64,000 nucleotides of DNA from Bacteriovorax sp. MedPE-SWde (GTDB taxonomy: Bacteria > Bdellovibrionota > Bacteriovoracia > Bacteriovoracales > Bacteriovoracaceae), in the NCBI GenBank assembly GCA_001874305.1, contig MPCU01000013.1, positions 1 to 64,000 on the forward strand. The letters are read 5' to 3'. The position numbers and the translations under genes were made by a program. This document shows positions 3,160 through 19,120 of this stretch, piece by piece. Each line of letters begins with the position of its first letter. The first letter of the stretch is position 1. Under the pieces are notes generated by a model. That model searched no databases and had not been told where the DNA came from. It was given only the letters and a program-made list of their open reading frames with translations.

Positions 3160-4113
3160 ATGAAAAAGAATAGATATGTAATTGTTGGTCTTGGAAAATA
3201 TGGCGGAAAAAGACTTAACTCACTCAATAAGAATCTGAAGAATTCTGAACTCGTTGGAGTTTTTGATACTAACCTAGATCAAAAATTTAAAGAACTTTCA
3301 TCTGACATGAAAATATACTCTTCATTAAAAGAAGTTTTCAATGATTCAAATGTAGATTCAATAATTCTTTCAACTCCAAACAATACGCACTTTGATATAT
3401 GTAAAGAAACACTATTACATGGAAAGAATATTCTTTGCGAAAAGCCACTTGGAATAAGTAATGATGAAGTTTTCAAGCTAAAAACTTTAGTACTTGAAAA
3501 CCCTCAACTAACTTTGAAAATGGGATCTAACCTCTCTTACTTTCCTGCTCTCATCAAGCTAAAAGAACTTCTTGAATCTAATAAGATTGGTCAGCTCGTT
3601 GAAGTAAAGTCTTCAATTGGTCATAATGGAGCCTATGTTAAAAACAGCTGGCATACATCTAAAGAGGTATCAGGAGGTGGATCATTAATTGATAATGGTG
3701 TTCATCTCATTACATATTTCAACTCTATCTTTGATGATCTTCAATTAATTGAATCAAATTTGATTAAAGAGGACTTTGAAGTTGAATCAGTTGCGCAGCT
3801 ACAACTTTCATCAATTCAATGTCCAAGTATTAAAATAGAAAGTACTTGGAAGAAAACAGATGGATACTGTGAGATAGAAGTTAAAGGTAGCCTTGGTTCT
3901 TTAAAAGTTAATGTTCTCAATGATGAAGTAATATTTCTTAACGATGGAAAGAGTAGCTCAATTCCTTGTGATGAAGATCTTCCTTCTATTGATAATGAAC
4001 TCATTAAGTTTTCTGAGGCGATTATAGAGAAGAAAGCAATATATCCTAATATTAGTGATGCTCAAAACATCCTAAATATTATTTTTAAGGCCTATTCTTC
4101 TTTTGAAAATTAA
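3160..4113 (+). CDS. Gfo/Idh/MocA family NAD(P)-dependent oxidoreductase
   Basis: The 317 residues match the family's usual length of 320-400. The N-terminal Rossmann fold has VIVGLGKYGGKR (GxGxxG at 10-15), and the diagnostic EKP motif is at 94-96 (CEKPLG). The second half is the alpha/beta dimerisation domain that supplies catalytic residues. Members oxidise or reduce hydroxyl groups of sugars, inositols or nucleotide sugars, and the substrate cannot be read from sequence. It opens the sugar-type cluster on the plus strand. Its 3' end overlaps the convergent radical SAM gene by 29 bp. It has no ribosome binding site and appears to be leaderless. Confidence 0.85.
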   Translation: MKKNRYVIVGLGKYGGKRLNSLNKNLKNSELVGVFDTNLDQKFKELSSDMKIYSSLKEVFNDSNVDSIILSTPNNTHFDICKETLLHGKNILCEKPLGISNDEVFKLKTLVLENPQLTLKMGSNLSYFPALIKLKELLESNKIGQLVEVKSSIGHNGAYVKNSWHTSKEVSGGGSLIDNGVHLITYFNSIFDDLQLIESNLIKEDFEVESVAQLQLSSIQCPSIKIESTWKKTDGYCEIEVKGSLGSLKVNVLNDEVIFLNDGKSSSIPCDEDLPSIDNELIKFSEAIIEKKAIYPNISDAQNILNIIFKAYSSFEN

Positions 4114-5092
4114 AGAAGAAATCAGGCTTTGTTGACCAGGTATCACAGCCTTCACAGGCCTTACACACATTGGTAAATTTTCCAGAAAGATGTTCATCTC
4201 TCATTTCTTCAACAAGCTCTGACTGCCAAATTTCCTCAAGTGTATCTTTGTTTACACTTCCAATTTTTAAATCCATCTTAGCATCTACACAGCAAATTGA
4301 GACATCTCCATGTACTGTAATAGTTGTAGTTAACCAAGGATGATAGCAGGGCCATCTCTTTGAGTTTGATTCTGTGGAACTCCAGTCACTTCTAAGTCCT
4401 GCAGAGTTATCATAGTGATCGTTCTCAATAACAATTCCAGCACTTCGTAGGTCGTCGAGTCTGGTCTCGTATTTTTTTTGCTCATCAACAGTATCAAATA
4501 ACCTGCATATTAAACTCTGATCAGAAGACAGCTCCTTTGCGAGCTCAAGCATATTTGAAATAACAAATTCAACATCTATATCTTTACCAACTCTAACTTT
4601 ATATTCTTCAGCATTAATAGTATGAAGACTGACAATAATTTGATCTATCTTTGCATCAACTATAAGTTGTCTATTCTTACTATTTAACAGAAATCCATTA
4701 GTGGTTAAGGTGATTCCATTTCGAGGATTACTTGTTTTTATATAAGATACAATCTCATACCACTTAGGATTTAAAAGAGGCTCACCCCACATATGTAGAG
4801 CAAAGACAGTAACCTTGGCCTTCTCATTTGCCTCATCGATTATCTTCTTCGCAAGTTCAACATCTATATGAGTCCCTTTCTCTGCTTCTGTTCTAGCGCA
4901 AAAAGGACAATCATAATTACAAGCACGAGATAATTCGAGGTTAATCTGTAGAGGGAATTTCTTATCAATGAGAAGTTGCATTCCACTCTTATAGATTTTT
5001 GAATAGATTGAATTAGAATACTTACTTAACTCAACCTGTTCAGTTGATTTAACAATGGCATTCTTTGCAATTTCCCTGAGTTTAGCTCTCAC
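4085..5092 (-). CDS. Radical SAM protein with C-terminal SPASM-like cysteine cluster
   Basis: The 335-residue protein has the radical SAM iron-sulfur motif SRACNYDCPFC (C58, C62, C65). It also has later cysteines (CC in the middle of the C-terminal half, CKACEGC near 310-316) typical of SPASM domains, which bind extra 4Fe-4S clusters. SPASM enzymes modify peptides or sugars, including radical dehydration or epimerisation in aminoglycoside pathways. The start is the GTG at 5092, whose GTGA overlaps the stop of the upstream GHMP kinase, so the two are translated together. The kinase-radical SAM pair runs opposite to the rest of the cluster. The exact reaction is not inferable. Confidence 0.8.
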   Translation of the reverse strand: MRAKLREIAKNAIVKSTEQVELSKYSNSIYSKIYKSGMQLLIDKKFPLQINLELSRACNYDCPFCARTEAEKGTHIDVELAKKIIDEANEKAKVTVFALHMWGEPLLNPKWYEIVSYIKTSNPRNGITLTTNGFLLNSKNRQLIVDAKIDQIIVSLHTINAEEYKVRVGKDIDVEFVISNMLELAKELSSDQSLICRLFDTVDEQKKYETRLDDLRSAGIVIENDHYDNSAGLRSDWSSTESNSKRWPCYHPWLTTTITVHGDVSICCVDAKMDLKIGSVNKDTLEEIWQSELVEEMRDEHLSGKFTNVCKACEGCDTWSTKPDFFFNFQKKNRP

Positions 5093-6051
5093 ACTAAACC
5101 TATATTAGAAAGAGATTCTTCACCTTGAATAAAGAGACCATTGGACTCTGGAGAAACTTTTTCAATATTCAATTTTGGAAGGGCCATTTGAATTTTGGGC
5201 ATTTCAGTTTTTGGAATGATAGCAGCAAAGTACCCTCCACCGCCTGCTCCTAAGAGCTTTGCCCCAAGGCATCCATTCCTCTTTAGAACACTATAAAGGT
5301 CGTCAATATCAGCATTAGTCATTTTTGATGACATTTCTTTTTTTATTTTCCAAGACTCATCTAAATATTTAGCAAAAATTTCAATATCTAGATCCTTCTT
5401 AATCACACTAGTTACTTCATCGACAATACTCATAAGATCATGAAGATGTGGGCTAACAGTATTACATGACTGAGTATAATCATGAATAACATCCCTGGCA
5501 TTTCTTCGAACACAAGTATCAATAAGATAAAGATCTTCTTTTAACTGCTCAACAATTCCAAAGTTTAAATTTTCAACTTTAATACCACCATCATTCTCAA
5601 AATCTATCCGGTTAAATCCACCAATCGCTGAAAGTAACTGATCCTGACAACCAACATTCTTACCGAGAATATTTTGTTCATACTTTGTCGTTAGTTTAGA
5701 GATTTCTAGAGGAGTATATTCTTTTTGAGATAACTTAAGCAGGAGTCCAATAAGGGAGTTAATCGTTGCTGAACTCGCCCCTGCTCCTTTATTTAAATAG
5801 CTGTGTATATTTGTTGATAAGGAATCTATTTCAGGTATCTCTAGATTCAAATAATGAGACAAAGAGTTCACTAGTTCAATATCTTTGCAATTGATATCAA
5901 CTAAGTAGTCGCTCTTAATATTAAATGCCCATGTACAATACCTATCAACAGAAGTACCTATTACCCTTCCACCATATTTATTAAACCACGATGGATAGTC
6001 CGTGCCACCACCAAAAAATGAAACTCTAAGAGGTGAATGGGCCAAAAACAT
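5089..6051 (-). CDS. GHMP-family sugar kinase (heptose-7-phosphate kinase HddA-like)
   Basis: The 320-residue protein begins with SPLRVSFFGGGTDYP, the N-terminal signature of HddA/LmbP-like GHMP sugar kinases. The ATP-binding GHMP motif is NKGAGASSATIN at about 88-97, and the C-terminal glycine-rich motif is GAGGGGYF at about 268. Known relatives phosphorylate D-glycero-D-manno-heptose 7-phosphate at C1, or fucose. No gmhA, gmhB or hddC partner gene is present here, so the substrate is uncertain. It is the first gene of a two-gene minus-strand unit, coupled to the radical SAM gene. A GGGA lies about 8 bases before the ATG. Confidence 0.85.
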   Translation of the reverse strand: MFLAHSPLRVSFFGGGTDYPSWFNKYGGRVIGTSVDRYCTWAFNIKSDYLVDINCKDIELVNSLSHYLNLEIPEIDSLSTNIHSYLNKGAGASSATINSLIGLLLKLSQKEYTPLEISKLTTKYEQNILGKNVGCQDQLLSAIGGFNRIDFENDGGIKVENLNFGIVEQLKEDLYLIDTCVRRNARDVIHDYTQSCNTVSPHLHDLMSIVDEVTSVIKKDLDIEIFAKYLDESWKIKKEMSSKMTNADIDDLYSVLKRNGCLGAKLLGAGGGGYFAAIIPKTEMPKIQMALPKLNIEKVSPESNGLFIQGEESLSNIGLV

Positions 6052-6134
6052 CGTAATCCCAATAAGTTAAAGATGGTTTATAATAATGAGGTATGTTATC
6101 TTAAATTATAAATAATATCAGCGGTTTTTACAAC

Positions 6135-6899
6135 ATGAACTCAAGATTAAAGCTATTTCAAAATGAATTACCAACACTTGCACTTACTTCAGAGCAGTTG
6201 AAATTCTATGATAAGAATGGCTTTCTAGTTATTGAAGGTTTCATAAGTCCTGAAGAATGTGATTCACTAGCACAAGCTGCGTTTGATTATGCTGGTGATA
6301 AAATTCACAATCATCTTAATTTTCATAGAGAGATCCAAGAATTTAAGGATCTGATCCTACACCCACAACTCCATGACATTTGTGATCAATTACAAAATAC
6401 AAGAATGATTCCTATAGGTTCTATATTCTTTTTTGGTAAACCAAATAATCCTCTGGAAAATGGATCTCTTGCCCATCAGGATAATTATGCAGCGAAAGCA
6501 CCGATTGGTAGTTACTTTGTGACAGCAGTTTCACTGGATGATGCTGACTCAGAAAATGGTGCACTAAATGTTTATCCCGGATCTCATAAGCTAGGTGAAC
6601 TTCCTTATAAGGATACAAAGAATTTTGAATTTGATGAAAATGGGAATATGACTAAGAACTACCCTATTGGAAGTGAAGTAGAAATTCCAGAAGGTCTTAA
6701 ATGCGAAACCTTATCGTATAAGAAGGGCGCTCTCATACTCATGCATACAAACACAATTCACAGTGCAGATAAGAATGAAAACACACAAGGTCGTTGGAGA
6801 AAGAAAATCTATATGCACTTTGTAAAAGATGGTGATCCATTCTGGCCTGGCTGGAATGCGAAAAGACAGATTATGGACAGAGGTCCTCGTCGAATATAA
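6135..6899 (+). CDS. Phytanoyl-CoA dioxygenase (PhyH) family Fe(II)/2-oxoglutarate oxygenase
   Basis: The 254 residues have the double-stranded beta-helix iron-binding triad: HQD (H114, D116) and a distal His in TIHSAD (about 209). An Arg near 220 is placed to bind 2-oxoglutarate. The family hydroxylates, epimerises or cleaves small molecules and occurs in natural-product and unusual-sugar pathways. The gene diverges from the kinase gene 83 bp away and begins a long plus-strand run. The next gene starts 11 bp after its stop, so it is very probably the head of the operon running to 13598. No strong ribosome binding site is visible. Confidence 0.8.
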   Translation: MNSRLKLFQNELPTLALTSEQLKFYDKNGFLVIEGFISPEECDSLAQAAFDYAGDKIHNHLNFHREIQEFKDLILHPQLHDICDQLQNTRMIPIGSIFFFGKPNNPLENGSLAHQDNYAAKAPIGSYFVTAVSLDDADSENGALNVYPGSHKLGELPYKDTKNFEFDENGNMTKNYPIGSEVEIPEGLKCETLSYKKGALILMHTNTIHSADKNENTQGRWRKKIYMHFVKDGDPFWPGWNAKRQIMDRGPRRI

Positions 6900-6910
6900 A
6901 TGGAGATTAT

Positions 6911-8032
6911 GTGGATAACTTTATTCCTGTTAATGAACCTATATTCATTGGTAATGAAAAGAAATATTTAAATGAGTGTATCGATACAGGATGGATTTCA
7001 TCTGCAGGTCGATTTATAACTGACTTTGAAGAACTTATGTCTAAAAGGTGTGAGCGAAACTATGGTGTAGCAGTATCAAGTGGCACGGCTGCATTAGAGA
7101 TTGCAGTAAAGTGCCTAGGTATAAAAGAAGGTGATGAAGTCATCATGCCTGCACTGACAATTATTTCATGTTCAAATTCTGTTATAAAGGCCGGTGGCAC
7201 TCCTGTTCTTGTAGACTGTGATGAGAGAACATTTAATATGACTCTTGAAACAATCAAAGAGAAAGTCACTGATAAAACAAAGGCCATCATGATTGTTCAT
7301 ATATATGGACTTCCTGTTGATATGGACCCAATTCTTGAGTTCGCTAAAGAGCGAGGTATTAAGATAATTGAAGATGCAGCAGAGATGCATGGCCAAACCT
7401 ATAAAGGAAGTCCTTGTGGAACTTTTGGTGATGTAAGTATTTTTAGCTTCTACGCTAATAAGCATGTCTCTACAGGTGAAGGCGGAATGCTCTTAACTAA
7501 CGACAAAGAGATTGCCGAGAAAGCCCAGTCCCTTAGAGACCATTGTTTTATGAAAGGAAGAAGATTCTTACATGATGATATTGGTGGAAATTTTCGTATG
7601 ACAAATCTACAGGCAGCAGTAGGGTTGGCCCAACTAGAATGCCTTGATACTTATATTGAAAAGAAAAGAGAGATGGGAAGACTATACTCTTCTATCTTAA
7701 GCGACTCTGATAAATTCGATATCCCAATTGTAGAAACAGAGTATGCAAAGAATGTGTACTGGGTTTATGCAATTACACTAAAAAATGAGTTCTATAAAAG
7801 TAGCGATGATATAGTAAGTAAACTTCGAGACTCAGCAATTGGTACAAGACCATTTTTCTGGCCTCTACATAAACAACCAATTTATCAAGAAATGGGATTA
7901 TTTAAAAATGAATCTTACCCCGTTTCAGAAAAGTTATCTCAATTAGGATTTTATCTTCCTAGTGGTTTGGCCTTAACTCCTGAACAAATAGAGCGATCAG
8001 CTAATTCACTTATTGAGGCAGTGAAGTCTTAA
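6911..8032 (+). CDS. DegT/DnrJ/EryC1 family PLP-dependent sugar aminotransferase
   Basis: The 373 residues are the usual length for the family. SSGTAALEIAV is the cofactor phosphate site and EDAAE (D155) contacts the pyridine nitrogen. K184 in YANKHVSTGEGG is the Schiff-base lysine. It resembles perosamine-synthetase-type enzymes, which transfer an amino group from glutamate to a keto-sugar. I chose the GTG at 6911 because it follows GGAG by five bases; nearby ATGs are out of frame. The stop overlaps the next gene's ATG (TAATG). Its presence implies that the product contains an amino sugar or aminocyclitol. Confidence 0.87.
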   Translation: MDNFIPVNEPIFIGNEKKYLNECIDTGWISSAGRFITDFEELMSKRCERNYGVAVSSGTAALEIAVKCLGIKEGDEVIMPALTIISCSNSVIKAGGTPVLVDCDERTFNMTLETIKEKVTDKTKAIMIVHIYGLPVDMDPILEFAKERGIKIIEDAAEMHGQTYKGSPCGTFGDVSIFSFYANKHVSTGEGGMLLTNDKEIAEKAQSLRDHCFMKGRRFLHDDIGGNFRMTNLQAAVGLAQLECLDTYIEKKREMGRLYSSILSDSDKFDIPIVETEYAKNVYWVYAITLKNEFYKSSDDIVSKLRDSAIGTRPFFWPLHKQPIYQEMGLFKNESYPVSEKLSQLGFYLPSGLALTPEQIERSANSLIEAVKS

Positions 8033-9510
8033 TGGATGCGCTAATAATAAATCCAGGGGGTAGAGATAAGACTTATCAAAACCTTAACAATGGCCTGACT
8101 GCAGTTGAGCCACCGATCTGGGCAGGGTTAATTACAAGCTTTCTAAAGAAGAAAGGTCATCATGTTGGTATTTTAGATACCAATGGCCTCTATCTGAATC
8201 CGAGTGAAACAGCAAAGAGAGTACAGGACTTAAAACCTAAACTTGTTGTTATAGTTGTATATGGACATAATCCATCTGCCTCTACTCAAACAATGCCATC
8301 AACTCGTGAAATAGTGACAGAGATTAGAAAGTCTTCTCAAGATATCAAAATTATACTCGTCGGTGGTCATGTCGCCTCCCTTCCAAAGAAATCTTTAGAA
8401 GAAGAAGATGTTGACTTTATCTGTACAGGTGAAGGTCCATACACATTAGATGATTTTATTCAATTTCAAAAAGGTAAGATTGAGTTGAATCAAGTAAGGG
8501 GAATTTGCTTTAATCATTCTGGGCAAATTATTCAATCCTCTCCAGCACCTCTCGTTGAAAACTTAGACGAAGAGATGCCAGGACTTCCTTGGGACCTACT
8601 TCCTATGGAGAACTATCGCTGCCATAACTGGCATGCTTTTGGTGGAATAGACAGATCTCCCTACGCTTCTATTTATACAACACTAGGATGTCCATTTACT
8701 TGTACATTTTGTTGTATTCAAGCTCCATTTAAAGAAGGCGAAGGCCTCTCTAATCAAACTAAAAATAGTTATCGCAAATGGTCTAGTAAAACAATTCTCT
8801 CTCAAATTGATATATTGGTTCAAGATTTTGGAATAAAGAATATCAAATTTGCAGATGAAATATTTGTTTTAGATAGAACACACGTTAATGAAATATGTGA
8901 TGGACTCATTGAGAGAGGATATGACCTAAATATTTGGGCCTATTCTCGAGTTGACACTATTACAGATGAAGTTGCCTCAAAGTTTTATAAGGCGGGAATA
9001 AAGTGGATCTGTCTTGGCATTGAATCATTTCATGAAGACTCACAAAAGAGTGTTAACAAAGCAATTAAAGGTACTCGAATTGATAAGGCAATTGAGATAT
9101 TAAAAAATCATCATATCAATATTATTGGTAATTTTATATTTGGTTTACCAGAAGATAATATGGAATCAATGCAGAGAACTCTAGATCTAGCAATTGAAAT
9201 GGATCTTGATTTTTCAAATTTCTATTGCACTATGCCCTATCCAGGCTCAGAGTTATACAAACAAGCAGTTAATGAAGGGCAAAAGCTACCAGAGGATTGG
9301 CAAGGCTATTCACAACACTCTTACAATACATGTCCTCTTCCAACAAATCATATAAGTGGAGTTGATGTACTACGTTTTAGAGATGATGCTTTTCATTCAT
9401 ATTATTCTCACCCTAGATATCTTAGCTATATTGAAAAGAAATTTGGAAAAGAAACAAGAGATAGTATTACTGCCATGTCTTCTACGAGACTTAAGAGGAA
9501 ATACACATGA
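8032..9510 (+). CDS. B12-binding-domain radical SAM protein
   Basis: The 492 residues begin with a cobalamin-binding-like domain: GGHVASLP, then DFICTGEGP at about 120-150. This is the usual layout of BchE-type radical SAM proteins. The radical SAM domain follows with GCPFTCTFC (cysteines at about 220, 224, 227). Relatives carry out methylations, ring contractions and carbon-skeleton changes. The N-terminal domain lacks an obvious DxHxxG lower-ligand motif, as is common in this class. It is coupled to the aminotransferase upstream (TAATG) and the epimerase downstream (ATGA). With the SPASM-type enzyme at 4085-5092, the cluster has two radical SAM proteins. Confidence 0.83.
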   Translation: MDALIINPGGRDKTYQNLNNGLTAVEPPIWAGLITSFLKKKGHHVGILDTNGLYLNPSETAKRVQDLKPKLVVIVVYGHNPSASTQTMPSTREIVTEIRKSSQDIKIILVGGHVASLPKKSLEEEDVDFICTGEGPYTLDDFIQFQKGKIELNQVRGICFNHSGQIIQSSPAPLVENLDEEMPGLPWDLLPMENYRCHNWHAFGGIDRSPYASIYTTLGCPFTCTFCCIQAPFKEGEGLSNQTKNSYRKWSSKTILSQIDILVQDFGIKNIKFADEIFVLDRTHVNEICDGLIERGYDLNIWAYSRVDTITDEVASKFYKAGIKWICLGIESFHEDSQKSVNKAIKGTRIDKAIEILKNHHINIIGNFIFGLPEDNMESMQRTLDLAIEMDLDFSNFYCTMPYPGSELYKQAVNEGQKLPEDWQGYSQHSYNTCPLPTNHISGVDVLRFRDDAFHSYYSHPRYLSYIEKKFGKETRDSITAMSSTRLKRKYT

Positions 9511-10487
9511 GTAAGAATATACTTGTAACAGGTGGCGCAGGATATGTTGGTGCTGAGCTAGTTCCAAAACTTTTAAATGAAGGTCACAAAGTAACAGTAC
9601 TCGATACATTTTGGTACAGTGACGAGAGCTTGTTTAAATCATCAGAAAATTTAAAGCTTATTAAAGGTGATATAAGAGATAAAGAAATCATTACTTCATC
9701 ACTTGTGGATATAACTGACGTGTTTCACCTTGCTTGTATCTCAAATGACCCAAGCTTTGACTTAGATCCTGAATTAGGAAAGAGTATAAATTATGACTGC
9801 TTTGAATATATAGTCAGTGAAGCTAAAAGAATGGGAGTTTCTCGATTTATTTATGCATCCTCATCAAGTGTATATGGCGTAAAAGAAACGCCAAATGTTA
9901 CAGAGGACTTATCCCTTGAGCCTCTTACTGATTACTCTAAGTACAAAGCGCTTTGTGAAACGATATTAAATAAGTATAAATCTGATAACTTCACTGTTGT
10001 ATCAGTTAGACCTGCGACTGTTTGTGGTCCTTCTAGACGACAGCGCCTTGATGTTGTTGTTAATATTCTTACTAACCATGCAATAAATAACGGTAAGATA
10101 AAGATTTTTGGTGGTGAACAAAAGAGGCCCAATATACATATTGAAGATATGTGCCAGGCCTATATTCAATTACTTAATGCTGAAGCTTCAATTATCAATG
10201 GTGAAATCTTTAATGCAGGTGGAGAAAATTTACCTGTAATGAAAATTGCACAGCTTGTATCGGAAGTCACTGGAGTTAAAACTCTAGATATACTACCAAC
10301 TGATGACATACGTTCTTACCATATTTCATCTGAGAAAATTTTCAATGCTATTGGATTTAAAGCACAAAAATCTGTTAAGGATGCAATTGTTGATCTTAAA
10401 AGTTCTTTCGACAATAATTTATTAAAAGACTCCTTGAGCGATCCAAAATACTTTAATGTTAAATTCGTTAAGGACTCATTACTCTAA
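9507..10487 (+). CDS. NAD-dependent epimerase/dehydratase (extended SDR)
   Basis: The 326 residues start with ILVTGGAGYVGAEL, the GxxGxxG dinucleotide site. The catalytic serines are in YASSSSVYG, and the YxxxK pair is in DYSKYK. This is the extended short-chain dehydrogenase family, whose members act on NDP-sugars as 4-epimerases, 4,6-dehydratases or reductases. The start ATG overlaps the previous stop (ATGA). Its partner in the same cluster is the epimerase at 15948-16877. The exact stereochemistry cannot be assigned from sequence. Confidence 0.87.
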   Translation: MSKNILVTGGAGYVGAELVPKLLNEGHKVTVLDTFWYSDESLFKSSENLKLIKGDIRDKEIITSSLVDITDVFHLACISNDPSFDLDPELGKSINYDCFEYIVSEAKRMGVSRFIYASSSSVYGVKETPNVTEDLSLEPLTDYSKYKALCETILNKYKSDNFTVVSVRPATVCGPSRRQRLDVVVNILTNHAINNGKIKIFGGEQKRPNIHIEDMCQAYIQLLNAEASIINGEIFNAGGENLPVMKIAQLVSEVTGVKTLDILPTDDIRSYHISSEKIFNAIGFKAQKSVKDAIVDLKSSFDNNLLKDSLSDPKYFNVKFVKDSLL

Positions 10488-10493
10488 GCTATT

Positions 10494-11915
10494 ATGAAAA
10501 TTGCGATAGATATTGATAACACATTAATAAACTATGAAGGCCTTTTTCTTGAGGCATCAAAAAGAGAAGGCTTAGATCTACCTAATTCCTTTAAAAAGAA
10601 TGACATCAAAGAGTATATAAGAGAGCAAGGGACATCGTGGCCAGAGCAGTGGATAAGAATCCAGGGCCATTGTTATGGAGATTTGATAAAGAATGCCCCC
10701 TACTTTAATAACGCAATTGAATCTATTTCTAAATGGATAGATTTAGGTCATCATATTCAGATAATTTCACATAAAACAGAATTAAGTCTTTGTCAGAACT
10801 ACAATCTTCATACGAGTTGTCTCGAAAGAATGGATGGAGATTTTTCAAATATAATGTTCTTTGACACTCTTAAAGATAAAGTAAATTACGTTAACAAGAA
10901 TAACTTCGACGTTGTCATTGATGACTTAAGTACTGTTTTAAATCTTGTGGATTCGAATATACTAAGGTTACACTTTACTGAAGAAACTCTATCTCAACAT
11001 CTATCATTTTTATCATGGACTAGAGTTGATGAGCTGATATCGGCAATCCCTACAGATATCTTCCCTATTGAAAATATTAAGAAGGTTGGAAAACAAACTT
11101 ATCAACTAACTTCAAAAAAACAAAAATATTTTCTTAAGTTATTCACAGATTTAACTCGATTTCAAAATGAACTCACTCTTTTAGATATATTAGATAAAGA
11201 ACAAATATATCACCCTAGGCCATTAGCTCAGCTAAGTAATGGTTTTATTTATAAAGACACAGAAGCTTTAGTTATCAAAGATTTTAGCGCTAAGTTCTGT
11301 GCTGATTATACAAATACATTAAGAAAGCTAAATACTTCGAAACATAAGTTTAATAGTGCCACACACTGTGTTTCTCATATTTCTCATTATTTATTAAATA
11401 TAGAGAATAGACTCAGCTCTTATAGTGGAGCTTATTTAGAAAAATTCACAAATATTTTTGATCATTTAAAGTCCAAAAAAATCACTGATCAAGATATTAA
11501 AACTATTATCTGCCAGCCAGATATGTTTAAAGATAATTTTGCTTACAAAGACGGTGAATTATATCTCTATGACTTTGAATCATTTGGATCCGATGATCCT
11601 GTCAGAATGATATTCAATGCAATTCATCACAATGGTCACAGTATAACTTTAGATGAGGCAACAAGCCTTTATCTATCAGTACGAGAACTATCGCATAATC
11701 ATGAGCTCTTCAACTACAGGTTCAAAACATTTTTTGATTGTAGTGCACTTGAATGGCTAATTATAATTGCAAACCAAGCAGAGATGTTTAATGACGCAAA
11801 AAAACTCAATTTAGTTCACCAATTAACAGATAAAATGACATATAATTTAAACAATTCTAAAAACATTTGGTCATGGCAAGGTGAGATCTATGACAGAATT
11901 CTCAAAATTATGTAA
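10494..11915 (+). CDS. HAD-like phosphatase domain fused to an APH/choline-kinase-like phosphotransferase domain
   Basis: The 473 residues comprise two domains. The first 170 or so start with AIDIDNTL, the HAD nucleophile motif (D6, D8), and resemble deoxyribonucleotidase-type HADs. From about 190 on there is an aminoglycoside-phosphotransferase-like fold. CQPDMFKDN (D343, N348) stands where APH enzymes have HGDLHxxN, and LYDFESFGSDDP (about 358) is the metal-binding DFE. The usual Brenner-motif histidine is replaced by Gln. A phosphatase and a kinase in one chain could swap phosphate positions on a sugar. It lies in the operon 6 bp after the epimerase gene, and its end overlaps the transketolase gene. 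Confidence 0.72.
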   Translation: MKIAIDIDNTLINYEGLFLEASKREGLDLPNSFKKNDIKEYIREQGTSWPEQWIRIQGHCYGDLIKNAPYFNNAIESISKWIDLGHHIQIISHKTELSLCQNYNLHTSCLERMDGDFSNIMFFDTLKDKVNYVNKNNFDVVIDDLSTVLNLVDSNILRLHFTEETLSQHLSFLSWTRVDELISAIPTDIFPIENIKKVGKQTYQLTSKKQKYFLKLFTDLTRFQNELTLLDILDKEQIYHPRPLAQLSNGFIYKDTEALVIKDFSAKFCADYTNTLRKLNTSKHKFNSATHCVSHISHYLLNIENRLSSYSGAYLEKFTNIFDHLKSKKITDQDIKTIICQPDMFKDNFAYKDGELYLYDFESFGSDDPVRMIFNAIHHNGHSITLDEATSLYLSVRELSHNHELFNYRFKTFFDCSALEWLIIIANQAEMFNDAKKLNLVHQLTDKMTYNLNNSKNIWSWQGEIYDRILKIM

Positions 11916-12690
11916 AGACATTAGATTTGATATCCTAGAGATATTTGAAAAAGGTGGAAGAGGGCATGTTCCTTCAGCATATTCACTTGTTGAAATACTT
12001 GCAACACTATACTTTGATACATTCAAACTGATACCTGAAAACTTTAAGACACAAGATAGACATAGAGTTCTTTTAAGTAAAGGCCACGGTTGTTTGGCCC
12101 TCTATGCAATTTTATATCGACTAAATTTCTATGATAAATCCGAGTTTCATAAATTTTGTAAAGTTGGTGGGATTCTTGGAGGTCATCCAACAAGAGGGAA
12201 AGTGCCAGGAGTAGAAATTTCTGCGGGCTCCCTTGGGCATGGAATGTCTCTTGGTATTGGACAGGCCATTTCATTAAAAAGAAAGGGCCTCGACAAGAAA
12301 GTAGCAGTCATAGTTGGTGACGGTGAATGCAATGAAGGATCGATTTGGGAAGCAGCACTATCTGCTAATAAGAACAATCTCGATAATTTCACTGTTCTCA
12401 TTGACTACAACAAAATTCAATCCTATGGACCTGTGGCAACGGTTTGTCCCCTGGAGCCTTTTCAAGACAAATGGAAGAGTTTTGGATTTGAAACCTACGA
12501 AGTAGATATGATTAACAACCCAAGAGAATTAAAAGCAATATTGGATAAAGAACAAAAGAGTCCGCGTGCGATTATTTGTCATACTAAGAAAGGCCAAGGA
12601 AATAGTATCCTAGAAAGTGATATTACGTGGCATCACAAGAATAAAGTCTCTAAAGAGGATATCGAACTTCTAAAAGGTGCCATGCTATGA
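11890..12690 (+). CDS. Transketolase, N-terminal (TPP-binding) subunit, first pair
   Basis: This is a stand-alone N-terminal half of a split transketolase, 266 residues from the ATG at 11890. An in-frame GTG lies at 11881, but AAGGTGAG sits just before the ATG and fits it better as a ribosome binding site. LSKGHGCLALY and GDGECNEGS (about 142) with the following Asn form the thiamine pyrophosphate and metal site. The start lies inside the 3' end of the HAD fusion gene, and the stop overlaps the C-terminal subunit's ATG. Such two-gene transketolases move two-carbon ketol units and often sit in sugar-biosynthesis clusters. Confidence 0.87.
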   Translation: MTEFSKLCKDIRFDILEIFEKGGRGHVPSAYSLVEILATLYFDTFKLIPENFKTQDRHRVLLSKGHGCLALYAILYRLNFYDKSEFHKFCKVGGILGGHPTRGKVPGVEISAGSLGHGMSLGIGQAISLKRKGLDKKVAVIVGDGECNEGSIWEAALSANKNNLDNFTVLIDYNKIQSYGPVATVCPLEPFQDKWKSFGFETYEVDMINNPRELKAILDKEQKSPRAIICHTKKGQGNSILESDITWHHKNKVSKEDIELLKGAML

Positions 12691-13598
12691 GAAAGACTGG
12701 TCTTAATACGATCTATGAATGTGCAAAGGAAGATAAGAATATTGTCTTCATTGGTTCTGACTTAGGTCCTGGAACATTGGACAATTTTAAAGAAGAGATG
12801 CCTTCACAGTTTTACATGGAGGGTATTTCAGAAGCTCATGTAATAAGTATGGCGGCAGGTATGGCAATGGAAGGAGATAGAGTTTATGTAAATACTATCG
12901 CTTCATTTCTCACTCGTAGAAGTCTTGAACAAGTAGCTTTAGATATATGTGCAGAAAATCTCAATGTGACAATTTATGGCAATGGAGGAGGTCTTGTATA
13001 TGGGCCACTTGGACATAGCCATACAGCAGTTGATGACTTTGCTCTACTTGCAGCACTCCCTAATCTCGTAGTTCTCGCTCCAGCAGATGCCAACGAGATG
13101 AGAGAATTTATAAAGCAAAGTGCGACATATGAGGGACCTATCTATATCCGTTTAGGAAAAGGTGGAGACCCACTGGTAACAGAAAAGAAAGATATTAAAA
13201 TTGGTGAGCCTTTATATTATGAAAAGAATCCTGACTCTAATAACCTCATTATAACAACAGGGATAATGCTCCAAAGAAGTCTCGATATGGCCAAAGAGCT
13301 AGACGTCAATATTCTTCACTACTCAACAGTGAAGCCGTTTAATACGAAATTACTTCTTGAGCATGTTAATAAGAGTACTAATATTGTTGTTATAGAGGAA
13401 CACTTAAAAAATGGTGGAATAGGAACTTCTGTTTGTCAGGAGCTAATTGAAAGTAGTATATCTCCAAAGTCTTTTCATCACTTTCATCTTGGTACAGAGT
13501 ATATTGATCAATATGGTCGACAAGAAGAAATCTTCGAATATCTAGAGCTAACACCAGAGAAAATGATTAATGTATTAAGAGATAAATGGGGCCTGTGA
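12687..13598 (+). CDS. Transketolase, C-terminal subunit, first pair
   Basis: The 303 residues carry the pyrimidine-binding domain, with the catalytic glutamate in GISEAH (E49), and the C-terminal transketolase domain. Canonical enzymes have GIAEQN here, so this pair deviates next to the catalytic Glu. GPLGHSHTAVDDFA is the cofactor-facing loop. Together with the 11890-12690 product it should form an alpha2beta2 enzyme. ATGA overlap with the upstream gene ensures equal synthesis. The 3' end overlaps the convergent RmlC-like gene by 24 bp, and this is the last gene of the plus-strand operon that begins at 6135. Confidence 0.87.
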   Translation: MRKTGLNTIYECAKEDKNIVFIGSDLGPGTLDNFKEEMPSQFYMEGISEAHVISMAAGMAMEGDRVYVNTIASFLTRRSLEQVALDICAENLNVTIYGNGGGLVYGPLGHSHTAVDDFALLAALPNLVVLAPADANEMREFIKQSATYEGPIYIRLGKGGDPLVTEKKDIKIGEPLYYEKNPDSNNLIITTGIMLQRSLDMAKELDVNILHYSTVKPFNTKLLLEHVNKSTNIVVIEEHLKNGGIGTSVCQELIESSISPKSFHHFHLGTEYIDQYGRQEEIFEYLELTPEKMINVLRDKWGL

Positions 13599-14093
13599 GT
13601 CTCGAGTAGAAAGAATCGGCTCCTTTGTAAATGGCCACTCTATTGAGAACTTTGGTTCATCATATTTATATGAAAACTGAGATTCCGGATCATAATTTGT
13701 TGATTGCTTATAATTAAAAATTCCAATATCTGAAATAATATAATGCCCATTAGCAAACCCCGGTGGAATAAGAACCTGATTACAACTCTTGGAGTCCAAT
13801 ATAAATGTTTGGCTCTTTCCAAAGTCAGAGCTTGATTCTCTTGTATCTACTACAGCTAAGAAAAGCTCTCCATAAGAGCAACTAACAAGTTTCCATGTTT
13901 TACTATCTCCATGTAGCCCTCTTAAGACATTTCTATGAGACTTAGAGTAATCATCTTGAATAAATTCGATATCTATTCCCGCTTCCTTATAATTATCTCT
14001 ATTATAAGTTTCGATATAGATACCTCTGTGATCTTCAAATTTCTCAGGAAATACTTCAAGTACACCGTCAAGATTAGTCTTTAAAACTCTCAT
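13575..14093 (-). CDS. dTDP-4-dehydrorhamnose 3,5-epimerase (RmlC) family protein
   Basis: The 172 residues match the family length (about 180). The cupin has the catalytic histidine motif RGLHGD (H61) followed by a substrate-binding Lys, then the barrel strands around LIPPGFANGHY. True RmlC enzymes have RGLHYQ and a Tyr-based acid, so the altered residues after the His make it an RmlC-like sugar epimerase or isomerase, not certainly the rhamnose enzyme. No rmlA, rmlB or rmlD is nearby. A GAGGTAAG ribosome binding site precedes the ATG. It is transcribed alone on the minus strand between the two transketolase pairs. Confidence 0.8.
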   Translation of the reverse strand: MRVLKTNLDGVLEVFPEKFEDHRGIYIETYNRDNYKEAGIDIEFIQDDYSKSHRNVLRGLHGDSKTWKLVSCSYGELFLAVVDTRESSSDFGKSQTFILDSKSCNQVLIPPGFANGHYIISDIGIFNYKQSTNYDPESQFSYKYDEPKFSIEWPFTKEPILSTRDSQAPFIS

Positions 14094-14130
14094 TTAACTT
14101 ACCTCTAAAAGAAAACTGCTCTCCAGTATA

Positions 14131-14176
14131 AGTATTTATTAAAATACTCATAAATACTAATATAACATGTTATAAT
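14131..14176 (+). promoter_or_regulatory. Palindrome-rich promoter of the second transketolase pair
   Basis: AGTATTT at 14131-14137 and AAATACT at 14142-14148 form a hairpin-like inverted repeat. TATAACATGTTATA at 14161-14174 is a perfect 14-base palindrome. A consensus TATAAT at 14171-14176 overlaps it, and the ATG follows at 14210 behind GAGGA. The layout suits a promoter covered by a dimeric regulator. Confidence 0.45.
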
Positions 14177-14209
14177 TTTTTATAAAATCTAGCTTTAATT
14201 GAGGATAAT

Positions 14210-15025
14210 ATGGATATTAAGACTCTTGAAGAAAAGTGCGTCTTTCATAGAAAGAAAGTACTCGAAACATGCCTACGTGCAGAAACTGGCCACGTAACTT
14301 CATCTCTATCATGCATAGAAATACTAATCACTTTATATTACAAAAACTACATTAGACAAAATCCAAATGATCCTAATGACGATGACCGTGACAGGTTCAT
14401 ACTAAGTAAAGCTCAGGCGAGTCCTCTACTCTATGCAATTCTAGCAGATCTTGGTTATTACGACCTTGGAGAGCTTGATAAGTTTGCACAAAAAGATGGA
14501 ATATTTGGAGTTCACCTTCAACATACAGTTCCAGGTGTAGAAAGTACTGCTGGGGCACTTGGACACGGACTTGGACTTGCTGCCGGTATTGCTTTAAGGG
14601 CAAAGATGGATAGAAAGTTATATCTTACCTATACACTCTTAGGTGATGGAGAATTATATGAGGGCTCTATTTGGGAAAGTATGAAATTTGCTTCTCATCA
14701 TAACTTAAATAACCTCGTTGGAATTATTGATAGAAATTATCTTTGTACAACTGATTTTACTGAAAATATAGTTGAACTAGAACCACTAACGGACAAGATT
14801 GAAGCATTCGGTTGGAATTGTATTCGCATTGATGGTCATAATCTTGAAGAACTAGATAAGGCCTTTGCAAACCTAAGATCAAGACCATCTCGAAAGCCAA
14901 CAATGATTATATGTGACACTGTAAAAGGCAAGGGACTTGATGTTATGAGTTTCAAACCACTATGTCACGGGATTCCACCAAAAGGTGAAGATGCAGAAAA
15001 AGCTAAAAAGGAATTAGGTATATGA
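14210..15025 (+). CDS. Transketolase, N-terminal subunit, second pair
   Basis: The 271 residues form the TPP-binding half of a second split transketolase. RDRFILSKAQASPLLYA replaces the usual SKGH, so the conserved His after SKG is missing. GDGELYEGS (about 144) and the Asn in IIDRNYL are retained. It has its own promoter region and a GAGGA ribosome binding site. It ends in an ATGA overlap with the C-terminal subunit. The sequence is clearly diverged from the first pair 2 kb upstream, so a different substrate is likely and a recent duplication is not. Confidence 0.86.
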   Translation: MDIKTLEEKCVFHRKKVLETCLRAETGHVTSSLSCIEILITLYYKNYIRQNPNDPNDDDRDRFILSKAQASPLLYAILADLGYYDLGELDKFAQKDGIFGVHLQHTVPGVESTAGALGHGLGLAAGIALRAKMDRKLYLTYTLLGDGELYEGSIWESMKFASHHNLNNLVGIIDRNYLCTTDFTENIVELEPLTDKIEAFGWNCIRIDGHNLEELDKAFANLRSRPSRKPTMIICDTVKGKGLDVMSFKPLCHGIPPKGEDAEKAKKELGI

Positions 15026-15942
15026 AAACTCAAAGAGATACTTTTTGGGATACATTATTTGAACTCGCAAAAAAAGATAGAGATATAATTGTTATTAGTG
15101 CTGATATGGGTGCTCCATCTCTGGATAAATTTAGAACAGAGCTTCCACATCAATTCATAAATACTGGTATCGCTGAACAAAATACAATTCTTGTTGGATC
15201 TGGATTAGCAAAAGAAGGTAAGAAGGTTTTCGTATATGCGATAGCTTCCTTCTTAACTCTAAACTGTGTGGAAAAAATTAGAGTTCAAAATGCGATGATG
15301 AATATTCCATTAAATATAGTCGGTGTTGGAGCAGGTTTTAGTTATCCTGATTCAGGGCCAACACATCATCTCCTTGAAGATATAGCCGTGATGAGATCTA
15401 TGCCAAATATAGATACTCTAAGCATAACTGATGCGACAATGGCACAAGCTGTTGCTGAAAACTACGGTTCCTACACAAATACAAAGTATATTAGACTCGA
15501 AAGACAACCTCTTGGTGAGATATATAACGAGACAAAGGATATATCATTTGAAGATGGTATGACAGAGATCTTCAAAGGTGAAGATACACTAGTTATAGCT
15601 AATGGTGTTATGCTATTAAAAGCTCATAAACTCATTAAAGAACATAAGCTTAAATGTGGTCTACTCGATATTTACCAAATTCCTATCAATTCGAAGAAAT
15701 TAGTTGAAGTTGCTTCTCAATATAAAAGGATTGTAACGATTGAGGAAACATTTCTTCCTGGTGGATTCGGTTCCGCAGTTCTTGAGTCTCTAAATGATCA
15801 TGAGTTAAGTATACCTGTTAAGAGAATAGGTATACCTATCGAAAAAGGATTCTGCTATGAATATGGTGGAAGAGACGAAATCCTTAAATATTATGGAATC
15901 ACAGAAGAATCAATTTTAGCAGATATTACTAAGGGCCTATAA
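15022..15942 (+). CDS. Transketolase, C-terminal subunit, second pair
   Basis: The 306 residues have the canonical GIAEQN catalytic motif (E52), unlike the first pair's GISEAH. They also have the loop PDSGPTHHLLEDIAVMR, which matches classical transketolase and DXS-like C-terminal halves with their paired histidines. It is coupled to the N-terminal subunit by ATGA. The gene converges on the minus-strand epimerase with only 5 bp between stops. Between the stops, AAGGGCC and GGTCCTT form a small imperfect hairpin without a T-run. Confidence 0.87.
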   Translation: MKTQRDTFWDTLFELAKKDRDIIVISADMGAPSLDKFRTELPHQFINTGIAEQNTILVGSGLAKEGKKVFVYAIASFLTLNCVEKIRVQNAMMNIPLNIVGVGAGFSYPDSGPTHHLLEDIAVMRSMPNIDTLSITDATMAQAVAENYGSYTNTKYIRLERQPLGEIYNETKDISFEDGMTEIFKGEDTLVIANGVMLLKAHKLIKEHKLKCGLLDIYQIPINSKKLVEVASQYKRIVTIEETFLPGGFGSAVLESLNDHELSIPVKRIGIPIEKGFCYEYGGRDEILKYYGITEESILADITKGL

Positions 15943-15947
15943 GGTCC

Positions 15948-16877
15948 TTAGATATTTGTCTCTCTAACGATTGTCATTTGTGAAGCTTTTATCATTTCGC
16001 GAATACCTGAACGTAAATCACGTTTAGCGATAAATCCCCTGTCGGCCAGTTTCTTATTACTTACAATATAGTTTCTCTTATCGGGATCAATCGCATATTC
16101 ATCACAAGAAATATCAACATCGCTATATTCAGATTTGATCATATTTGCTAATTCAAGTTTTGAAATATTTGCTGAATCGAGACCAAGATTAAAGGCCTCC
16201 CCTCTTAGCTTTTCAAAGTTATCTATTATGAATATGAAGCAATCAATAACATCTCTTATATGTATAAAGTTTCTTTTAAAGTGTCCCTCATAAATAACAA
16301 GTTTCTTTTCTTTTACTGCACGGTAGACAAAATCATTTACCATGAGATCAAATCTCGTTCTATATGATGTACCAAAAACTGTTGCTAGTCGAAGAGTAAC
16401 GGCTTTATTAGAAGCGAGTAATACTTCCTCTGCTTCAACCTTAGTTCTTCCATACAAAGATATTGGATCAAGAGGCGTTTCTTCTGTACAAAACTCTTCA
16501 CCAGACTTTGTTCCATAACCGCTATTAGTTGTTGGATAAATTATTCTTTGATTATACTTAACATTTTTTACTAGTGTTTTAATCGATTCTAAATTTACAG
16601 CTTGTGCTTCTTCTGGAAATTTATCACAAAGAGGTGCTCCAACGAGGCAGGCCAAAGGAAAAATTACATCAACGTCATCTAAAGCAGTAATTAAGGTTTT
16701 TTCACATTTCACATCACCATATATGAATTCAAATCGATCATTATAACAGAATTGATCTAGTGAGTTTTGTTTAAATCGTAAGATATCGAGGACACGGACA
16801 TTATGACCATCACTTAATAGTTTATCAATAAGTAGTGAGCCAATATAACCAGCTCCACCAGTAACAAGAATATTCAT
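15948..16877 (-). CDS. NAD-dependent epimerase/dehydratase (extended SDR), in the aro operon
   Basis: The 309 residues start with ILVTGGAGYIGSLL, the NAD site. The catalytic pair is in SLYGRTK (YxxxK), and NFIHIRDV is the usual substrate-domain motif. It is a nucleotide-sugar-type extended SDR and the second in the cluster. It lies 11 bp downstream of aroA on the same strand, so it is probably co-transcribed with aroC-aroB-aroA although its chemistry belongs to the neighbouring sugar cluster. The exact substrate is unknown. Confidence 0.85.
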   Translation of the reverse strand: MNILVTGGAGYIGSLLIDKLLSDGHNVRVLDILRFKQNSLDQFCYNDRFEFIYGDVKCEKTLITALDDVDVIFPLACLVGAPLCDKFPEEAQAVNLESIKTLVKNVKYNQRIIYPTTNSGYGTKSGEEFCTEETPLDPISLYGRTKVEAEEVLLASNKAVTLRLATVFGTSYRTRFDLMVNDFVYRAVKEKKLVIYEGHFKRNFIHIRDVIDCFIFIIDNFEKLRGEAFNLGLDSANISKLELANMIKSEYSDVDISCDEYAIDPDKRNYIVSNKKLADRGFIAKRDLRSGIREMIKASQMTIVRETNI

Positions 16878-16888
16878 TCTTTCTCTCT

Positions 16889-18109
16889 TTATTCCATCTC
16901 TGTAAAGAAGCTCGGAAATGACTTAGCTACACAACTTGAGTTACCAAGGACTCCACCACCATTAAATCTTTGAAACAAATATGCAACCATAACCATTCTA
17001 TGATCCACAGGAGGATCATAATTTACAATGTCCTCGTGAGGATCTCGACCAGTAATCGAAAGCATATCTTTTTCTAAATCATATGAAAAACTAACTCCAA
17101 ATGCTTCTAACATTCTTTGCATTTCAGCTAAACGGTCACATTCTTTATGTTTTAGAACATCTACATTATATAGTTTGGTCGTTCCTCTACTATAACTTGC
17201 TATAAAACAAAGTGTAGGAACAAGGTCTGGACAATCTTTACAGTCTTTTTCAAATCCAGGAATATCATCTCTACCCGCAACAACTAGTCCCTCTTTTGAA
17301 AACTCTAAATCAAGCCCTAGCTCTTCTAGTAAGTAAATCAGTGTACTATCTGCTTGAAAACGATCTATTCCACGACAGTTTTTCACAAGAACTCTTCCCG
17401 AAAAACTGGCCATCGCCAGAGGATAGGATAGAGAACTAAAGTCGACGGGAATATCAAAAACATCTCCATCTTTGAAACTATCAATTATATTAACTGTCAT
17501 TTCCCAATAAGGAGTTGAAGTCGTTAAGTTTACAGGAGTTATATCAACATTTAGTTTTGAAAGACTTAACGCAAGGCCTGTAGCAAATTGTGTTGATCGA
17601 GAACAATCAACATCAACAACATGTCGATTAATTTTATAAGGACCCTTTAATGAAAACCATGTCTTCGAATCTCTAATAACATCAACGCCAAGACTAGTCA
17701 TTACTTCGTCTAGTTCATCCATAGGCCTTTCAATCATCATCTCAGAGGCTTTTAAACTATATCTATTAGAGCCCAAAGCAAGTAAAGGTATAATAAACCT
17801 ATTTGTAGTACCACCGTCACCAGTAACTAGTTCAACCGTATCTTCACATGGAACTTCACACTCTGGAAATGAATTCACAATAGTTATAGAGTCAGCCTCT
17901 TCAACTATTTCAATCCCAACGGCACGTAAGCATTTCTTCATATTAACAACATCTGTAGATTCAGGCATATTGTTTAAAGTTACAGGACTGTCATTAATAG
18001 CTGCGAGTATTAACGCTCTATTAGCAAACGACTTTGATGTCGGAACGACAAGAGTCTTATTTAAAACTGGAGTCCTTTTTGTATTATAAGATAAATTTTC
18101 TGAGCTCAT
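16889..18109 (-). CDS. aroA: 3-phosphoshikimate 1-carboxyvinyltransferase (EPSP synthase)
   Basis: The 406 residues resemble the two-domain EPSP synthase fold. VPTSKSFANRALI contains the N-terminal Lys and Ser that bind shikimate 3-phosphate. TGDGGTTNRF replaces the usual LGNAGTAMR, with the Arg kept. DCPDLVPTLCF carries the catalytic Asp, HKECDRLAEM binds PEP, and DHRMVMV is near the C terminus. The unusual glycine loop makes it a diverged, class II-like member. The start overlaps the end of aroB by 26 bp. It catalyses the sixth step of the shikimate pathway. Confidence 0.9.
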   Translation of the reverse strand: MSSENLSYNTKRTPVLNKTLVVPTSKSFANRALILAAINDSPVTLNNMPESTDVVNMKKCLRAVGIEIVEEADSITIVNSFPECEVPCEDTVELVTGDGGTTNRFIIPLLALGSNRYSLKASEMMIERPMDELDEVMTSLGVDVIRDSKTWFSLKGPYKINRHVVDVDCSRSTQFATGLALSLSKLNVDITPVNLTTSTPYWEMTVNIIDSFKDGDVFDIPVDFSSLSYPLAMASFSGRVLVKNCRGIDRFQADSTLIYLLEELGLDLEFSKEGLVVAGRDDIPGFEKDCKDCPDLVPTLCFIASYSRGTTKLYNVDVLKHKECDRLAEMQRMLEAFGVSFSYDLEKDMLSITGRDPHEDIVNYDPPVDHRMVMVAYLFQRFNGGGVLGNSSCVAKSFPSFFTEME

Positions 18110-19109
18110 CTATTTTCTCACTTAAGTTTTTTTCAAATTCACTAAATTTTATTCTTTCAATCTCTGGTGACCCAATCTCCTGGATCTTAATAATATCTAG
18201 CTCTTCACTAGTTACAGCTTTCTTATCTTTTCGTATGTAATTCATAATATCATCAATTGGAAAACTCTTATTGTGCCACGGCGGTTGTTCTAAGTTTATT
18301 GATAATTTACCACTAAACTCTTTAAGCATTATGAGATTTTTACTATCATCATACATTTTAAATATTACAAGAATTCCCCAAGCAACAGCAACTCCGTGAG
18401 GAAGGTTAAAGATCCTTTCAAGAGCATGGCCAACAGTGTGTCCAAGGTTTAATACTTTTCTCTTTCCACTTTCTTTAAAGTCTTCTTCAACGATTTGTTG
18501 CTTATATTTTGCACACGATTGAATAACTTCATTGAAATTGTGTTCATCAAGAATCATTTTTCCTATTTCTTTATCTAGGAAACAATACTTTAATAACTCA
18601 CCTCTTCCTGAGTTAATATTAGATGAGTCAAGTGTATCTAAAAAATCTTGGTGAATATAAATATTGTCAGGAAGATGAAAGGCTCCCACGAGATTCTTAC
18701 CGTATTCAGAGTTAATGGCCACTTTACCACCTATAGACGCATCTATCATTGATAATAAAGTTGTAGGAACAACACTCCAGTGAACTCCTCTTAATAGCAT
18801 TGAGGCAACTAAACCAGCGAAGTCACTACAGGCCCCTCCGCCAAATGCAATCAAATGTGATCTTCTATGAACACCCTTTGAAAGAAAGAACTCAAGACAA
18901 TGTTTTAATTCATCATAATCTTTAGTTTCCTCACCATCTAAGCACTTCCAGATATGTACTTTCTTACCTTTGATATTTAAAAAATCAAAAGACTTCCTAT
19001 ATAGATTATATACATTCGCATCTACTACTAGCAAAATTGTGTCAGTATTTAGTTTTTCAAATTCTTTTTTTAGAACTTCCAACGATTTAACATTCAATAA
19101 ATTACTCAT
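18084..19109 (-). CDS. aroB: 3-dehydroquinate synthase
   Basis: The 341 residues have the NAD-binding signature FGGGACSDFAG, where most AroB have GGGVxGD. DASIGGKVAIN is the substrate site. The zinc ligands are in GRGELLKY, LGHTVGHALE and LPHGVAVAWG. It converts DAHP to 3-dehydroquinate. The broader family includes sugar-phosphate cyclases that make aminocyclitols. Because it sits beside a sugar-type cluster, that alternative was considered, but tight linkage to aroC and aroA favours the shikimate role. It lies 11 bp after aroC. Confidence 0.9.
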   Translation of the reverse strand: MSNLLNVKSLEVLKKEFEKLNTDTILLVVDANVYNLYRKSFDFLNIKGKKVHIWKCLDGEETKDYDELKHCLEFFLSKGVHRRSHLIAFGGGACSDFAGLVASMLLRGVHWSVVPTTLLSMIDASIGGKVAINSEYGKNLVGAFHLPDNIYIHQDFLDTLDSSNINSGRGELLKYCFLDKEIGKMILDEHNFNEVIQSCAKYKQQIVEEDFKESGKRKVLNLGHTVGHALERIFNLPHGVAVAWGILVIFKMYDDSKNLIMLKEFSGKLSINLEQPPWHNKSFPIDDIMNYIRKDKKAVTSEELDIIKIQEIGSPEIERIKFSEFEKNLSEKIDELRKFIL

Positions 19110-19120
19110 GTAATATCCTA

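Follow-up and report, generated by a model that had tools for sequence, protein, structure and literature searches.

Does a run of nucleotide-sugar enzymes that stands without transferase or exporter represent an orphan pathway? The question is raised by positions 3160-16877 of a 64,000-nucleotide stretch of Bacteriovorax sp. MedPE-SWde (contig MPCU01000013.1; the whole stretch is called the window), a cluster that the original prediction ranked first in the window as a candidate undescribed system. We refer to the source genome as G000, to the contig carrying the window (141 kb) as C5, and to other contigs of the same genome as C2, C8, C9 and C11. In our analysis the cluster is not an orphan system but an authentic rare-sugar pathway that has unusual cassettes and lies in a surface-glycan locus of ordinary type. 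It is probably the nucleotide-sugar arm of a variable locus of ∼52 kb, for lipopolysaccharide (LPS), capsule or pilin glycan, that lies between aroCBA and dsbA/dsbB and is broken at window base 1. What the computation shows directly is that the two contigs join, that the joined contig carries glycosyltransferases, that two cassettes recur and that catalytic motifs are conserved.

The contig break and the joined locus

Window base 1 is the end of C5, where a minus-strand open reading frame (ORF; 2-1000) runs off, and C9 starts mid-ORF. The two contigs overlap at these ends by exactly 26 nt, a match found nowhere else among the DNA stretches examined, and joining them restores a 542-aa membrane protein. 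Intact homologs align with it over 539 aa in the Halobacteriovorax metagenome-assembled genome G012 and over 514 aa in G020. In G012 (locus L025) the intact homolog adjoins a pilin gene, like on C5, and in G020 (locus L086) it is followed by DegT and cupin genes, the same as on C9. Genes of one cassette (TK1, described below) that are divided between C5 and C9 here are adjacent in other genomes, so that the TK1-associated 2-oxoglutarate (2OG)-oxygenase, small protein and methyltransferase genes at C9:29.3-31.1 kb provide an independent tie of C9 to C5. Given the overlap, the restored ORF and the matching neighbors on both sides, we consider with high confidence that C5 and C9 are contiguous, and the missing TRANSFERASES are taken to be a contig-end artefact. 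Synteny of dsbA and aroCBA within 10 kb is found in the sister genome G003 only, these genes elsewhere being far apart or on separate contigs; it supports the join without proving it, the proof being the overlap and the ORF restoration.

The joined locus runs from aroCBA (aroA) to dsbA/dsbB (C9:35.5-36.6 kb). Its C9 side encodes three GT2 glycosyltransferases, one of them nearest to the PgfS/ArnC polyprenyl-phosphate transferases (below cut-off), together with a NodU-type carbamoyltransferase, a GDP-mannose-dehydratase-like protein, a sugar C-methyltransferase (PF08421/PF13489/PF08484), additional DegT and radical SAM genes, and several multi-membrane proteins. Searches on the C9 side identified no flippase or polymerase, the multi-membrane proteins there having no confident family match; Wzx-like genes were seen by eye, only on C11. 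The reported lack of glycosyltransferase, nucleotidyltransferase and exporter holds for 3160-16877 only and is not confirmed as a biological fact: the locus continues on C9, where glycosyltransferases lie. With transferases just across the join, the same genes in surface-glycan loci of relatives, and part of the module already named in NCBIfam, the cluster loses its rank as an undescribed system. In G003 the interval between aroCBA and dsbA is ∼7 kb and contains the TK1 core with oxygenase, DegT and methyltransferase genes; compared with ∼52 kb here, this indicates a variable site in the genus.

The interval 3160-16877 contains 14 genes, rather than the 12-13 first counted, and Pfam and NCBIfam searches confirm all the enzyme classes that had been named (Table 1). 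Their tight coupling is real, with TAATG at 8032, ATGA at 9507, 12687 and 15022, and GTGA on the minus strand at 5089-5092.

Table 1. Genes of the window between the end of contig C5 and the aro border
Feature	Position	Strand	Evidence
N-terminal portion of multi-membrane protein, truncated by contig end	2..1000	-	remainder at C9:1-655
Prepilin-type protein bordering the sugar genes	958..2895	-	PF07963/TIGR02532; same neighbor in Halobacteriovorax L025 (synteny)
Gfo/Idh/MocA oxidoreductase	3160..4113	+	PF01408 9.8e-22; relatives in L027, L086
Radical SAM/SPASM protein	4085..5092	-	PF04055, PF13186; 52% homolog in L025
GHMP kinase, nearest HddA (heptose-7-phosphate kinase)	5089..6051	-	NF049969 96 bits (below cut-off 600); PDB 3k85 9e-26
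PhyH-type oxygenase	6135..6899	+	PF05721 8.1e-21; 62-67% homologs in TK2 loci
DegT aminotransferase, nearest perosamine synthase	6911..8032	+	PF01041 4.5e-108; PDB 3bn1 2.2e-84
B12-binding radical SAM protein, TK2 cassette marker	8032..9510	+	PF02310, PF04055
Epi1, SDR epimerase/dehydrogenase-type, first TK1 cassette gene	9507..10487	+	PF01370 1.8e-40; best PDB 6vo6 2.4e-33
HAD phosphatase - APH/choline-kinase-fold kinase fusion	10494..11915	+	motif alignment, structure model, fold matches
TK1N, N half of split transketolase 1	11881..12690	+	PF00456 6.8e-31; residue mapping, tree
TK1C, C half of split transketolase 1	12687..13598	+	PF02779, PF02780
RmlC-like 3,5-epimerase	13575..14093	-	PF00908 2.2e-47; TIGR01221 148 bits (cut-off 155.75)
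TK2N, N half of split transketolase 2 (H66 to Q)	14210..15025	+	PF00456 2.2e-39; residue mapping, tree
TK2C, C half of split transketolase 2	15022..15942	+	PF02779, PF02780
Epi2, SDR epimerase/dehydratase-type, TK2 cassette	15948..16877	-	PF01370 3e-32; 42-60% homologs beside TK2 in L023, L028, L144-L148
aroC-aroB-aroA, housekeeping border, outside the pathway	16889..20113	-	AroB single copy; same border in G003, G007

Two recurrent cassettes

The gene set consists of two recurrent cassettes, each named after its split transketolase. The TK1 cassette comprises Epi1, the HAD-kinase fusion, TK1N and TK1C, usually followed by the 2OG-oxygenase, small protein and methyltransferase genes. Two of the latter three genes on C9 exceed the cut-offs of two NCBIfam models of a 'sporadic carbohydrate cluster', TIGR04323 (SpoChoClust_1, LIC12192 family; C9:29962-30357, 84 bits against 55) and TIGR04324 (SpoChoClust_2 oxygenase; C9:30344-31093, 250 bits against 150), and in relatives they adjoin the TK1 cassette. 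TIGR04324 scores above cut-off in 18 of the 369 genomes of the phylum; a literature search found no paper describing this cluster or its product.

The TK2 cassette comprises the B12-radical SAM protein, DegT, TK2N, TK2C and Epi2, with a GHMP kinase and, in relatives, a nucleoside triphosphate (NTP)-transferase. TK2N (E ≤ 1e-90) occurs in 12/369 phylum genomes, all of them among the 23/369 that encode the B12-radical SAM protein (hypergeometric 1.2e-16, a value overstated because some genomes are closely related), and 10 of the 12 have the two genes ≤5 kb apart. A compact run of B12-radical SAM, DegT, TK2N, TK2C and Epi2 genes, flanked by GT2, NTP-transferase, GHMP-type kinase and membrane genes, is present in another family of the phylum (L144-L146). 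More broadly, the loci of relatives combine the same genes with glycosyltransferases, nucleotidyltransferase, carbamoyltransferase and methyltransferase, and cassette genes occur with transferases in the surface-glycan loci L017, L018, L023/L086, L028 and L144-L148.

Large prepilin-type proteins repeatedly adjoin the TK2 cassette across families (window 958-2895; L025:1575-3746; L136 near 5763; L150:3661-4767), so that pilin could be a glycosylation target. A four-gene set at C9:18231-24763 (VCBS-type lipoprotein, ∼545-aa protein with Tat-like N-terminus, small protein and cytochrome-like protein) is also present in the Halobacteriovorax TK2 locus (L025:12001-18536).

Neither Pfam nor NCBIfam gives a match for the HAD-kinase fusion, and a PDB sequence search gave none. 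In an alignment of ten homologs, both the HAD signature (DxDxT, S, K, DD) and the kinase signature (PD....N, D.E) are kept. In an AlphaFold model (pLDDT 90), residues 1-187 match deoxyribonucleotidases (Z 14-16, best 16.2) and the remainder matches LicA, APH and NahK-type (N-acetylhexosamine) kinases (Z 14-17), matches that indicate the fold and not the substrate.

Split transketolases and the predicted product

Relative to E. coli TktA (L102), whose numbering is used here, both split pairs keep the residues for binding of thiamine diphosphate and catalysis (H26, H100, H261, E411 and H473). The acceptor site differs: H461 is replaced by G in both, D469 by L in TK1 and by S in TK2, and TK2 also has Q at the H66 position; S385 and R520 were not used, their mapping in the alignment being ambiguous. 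In TktA, H461 contributes to binding of the substrate phosphate, and D469 binds the acceptor hydroxyl. With these two residues changed, the acceptor of TK1 and TK2 is probably unusual. In a phylogenetic tree TK1 and TK2 form separate clades (support 1.0 each), with the pair of Azospirillum B510 placed next to TK2.

The TK1 loci of relatives encode GmhB-, GmhA-, HldE-, HddC- and HddA-like proteins, and these heptose-pathway-like neighbors suggest that the product is a decorated sugar derived from a nucleoside diphosphate (NDP)-heptose. The best PDB match of Epi1, 6vo6, is presumably Cj1427 (GDP-heptose C4-dehydrogenase), and the next PDB match scores close behind. The only HddC-like nucleotidyltransferase found is unlinked (C2:121042-121749, equivalent to L060:10042-10749) and might catalyze the activation step; beside it lies a radical SAM-like gene.

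In the pathway that we propose, the HddA-like kinase and the HddC-like nucleotidyltransferase would activate a heptose-type sugar phosphate, and Epi1 and Epi2 would oxidize the NDP-sugar to a keto-sugar, which the RmlC-like, Gfo/Idh, PhyH, DegT and B12-radical SAM enzymes may epimerize, reduce, hydroxylate, aminate and methylate. The split transketolases would move a two-carbon ketol unit onto a non-standard acceptor, either a keto-sugar or an unusual sugar phosphate, the latter possibly processed by the HAD-kinase. GT2 enzymes would then transfer the sugar to polyprenyl phosphate, for attachment outside the cell by multi-membrane transferases. The earlier view that the genes form one coherent pathway of nucleotide-sugar type, whose product is probably a rare sugar, branched or amino, is retained.

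Branching of NDP-keto-sugars by TK1 and TK2 is possible, although unproven, and a sugar-phosphate role is about as likely. According to a 2025 review (PMC12247030), Streptomyces clusters contain split-gene transketolases for which keto-sugar branching has been proposed, none of them characterized in vitro. In its full form, the branching idea is that TK1 and TK2 represent two split-transketolase families whose members attach a two-carbon ketol branch to an NDP-keto-sugar. The branched sugar would next be aminated, and methylated by the B12-radical SAM protein, so that Bdellovibrionota would display branched higher-carbon amino sugars at their surface; we put this forward tentatively and think it rather unlikely as a whole. 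We give somewhat more credence, still short of an even chance, to the proposal that in the same surface-glycan locus the split transketolases are sugar-phosphate enzymes, making a dedicated keto-sugar phosphate (sedoheptulose-7-phosphate, an epimer or an amino analog) from which the HAD-kinase and other enzymes form an NDP-heptose, with no branching of keto-sugars. Heptose pathways begin at sedoheptulose-7-phosphate (PMC10680097), the heptose-pathway-like genes accompany TK1 in relatives, and the HAD-kinase fusion directly precedes TK1N; however, both transketolases have lost the H461 and D469 presumed to contact phosphate and acceptor, and the genome already encodes a standard-type transketolase (C8:307098).

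The adjoining aroCBA genes, and the cassettes without close glycosyltransferases, might instead point to a secreted small molecule or a cyclitol/aminoshikimate product, and the Gfo/Idh, DegT, HAD, kinase and split transketolase genes resemble gene types of the aminoshikimate route. This is very improbable, as glycosyltransferases are linked to the cluster in the source genome and in most relatives, no polyketide synthase- or non-ribosomal peptide synthetase-type gene was seen, and AroB is single copy in three genomes, leaving no second cyclase. The aminoshikimate (3-amino-5-hydroxybenzoic acid) pathway was rejected on the absence of a second AroB homolog (one PF01761 match each in G000, G003 and G007); the cyclitol-like product once considered is disfavored for the same reason, and the adjacent aroCBA look like housekeeping genes. 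Least credible of all is that the join is accidental and the cluster a true orphan elsewhere in the genome: the overlap is just 26 nt, its uniqueness checked only among the stretches examined, but it is exact and restores in frame an ORF that is intact in two genera, the neighbors match on both sides, and TK1 cassette genes straddle the junction.

Several points weigh against the surface-glycan locus that we prefer. The C5/C9 join is based on sequence overlap and synteny rather than on reads; no nucleotidyltransferase was found in the locus of the source genome, C9 side included; the C9 membrane proteins have no confident GT-C family match; and the cassettes of G003 and L025 have no glycosyltransferase among their close neighbors. 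Substrates and product are predictions, and the heptose-type sugar is inferred because all the heptose-type assignments fall below the curated equivalog cut-offs.

Comparison with known systems

In the Campylobacter jejuni capsular pathway, heptose from sedoheptulose-7-phosphate is activated to GDP-heptose, and a 4-keto intermediate is then made (PMC10680097). Of its enzymes (GmhA, HddA, GmhB, HddC, a C4-dehydrogenase and a 3,5-epimerase), our locus shares an HddA-like kinase, an RmlC-like epimerase and SDR keto-sugar-type enzymes, with the HddC-like protein on C2; the HddA and HddC equivalog thresholds are not reached (96 against 600 bits, and 179 against 300 bits on C2). Unlike that pathway, it adds two split transketolases, a B12-radical SAM protein, PhyH and the HAD-kinase, and transketolase is nowhere mentioned in PMC10680097. 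The transketolases of the miharamycin and amipurimycin clusters (PMC12247030) are likewise split into N and C halves beside an oxidoreductase able to make a keto-sugar, but all 13 in that review come from Streptomyces natural-product clusters, whereas TK1 and TK2 lie in surface-glycan loci of Bdellovibrionota. The glycan locus of the Solidesulfovibrio carbinolicus plasmid pDCAR1 (NZ_CP026539.1) has the same order of HAD protein, APH-type kinase, TK1N, TK1C and a 48% identical methyltransferase, together with pseB/pseC and a TIGR04372 glycosyltransferase; it differs in that HAD and kinase are encoded separately and that Epi1 does not occupy the same position. Searches of the literature on transketolase in O-antigen loci, Bdellovibrio, flagellin glycosylation and Bacteriovorax LPS found no direct description.

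On a plasmid of Methylovirgula sp. HY1 (L074:4752-10727), a split transketolase lacking the H461 equivalent comes after rfbF-rfbG-reductase-rfbH, genes expected to provide a CDP-4-keto-3,6-dideoxy sugar, and this locus would be a simpler test case for keto-sugar branching. In a second large polysaccharide locus of the source genome (C11:156049-159752, equivalent to L056:16049-19752), three consecutive genes encode a PEP-synthase-like protein (PRK05849; 979 bits against a cut-off of 501), a gamma-glutamyl-CDP-amidate hydrolase-like protein (109 bits against 250) and an NTP transferase. The trio resembles the core genes for O-methyl phosphoramidate modification of the Campylobacter capsule.

The analysis removes a false orphan pathway, the contig break having hidden its transferases, and defines two recurrent rare-sugar cassettes with uncharacterized split transketolases. 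Compact cassettes with recognizable acceptor-site changes would make the question of keto-sugar branching testable, and branching by TK1 and TK2, if true, would mean that a transketolase acts on a nucleotide sugar to produce sugars of the cell surface. The surface glycans of these bacteria may affect contact with phage and prey.

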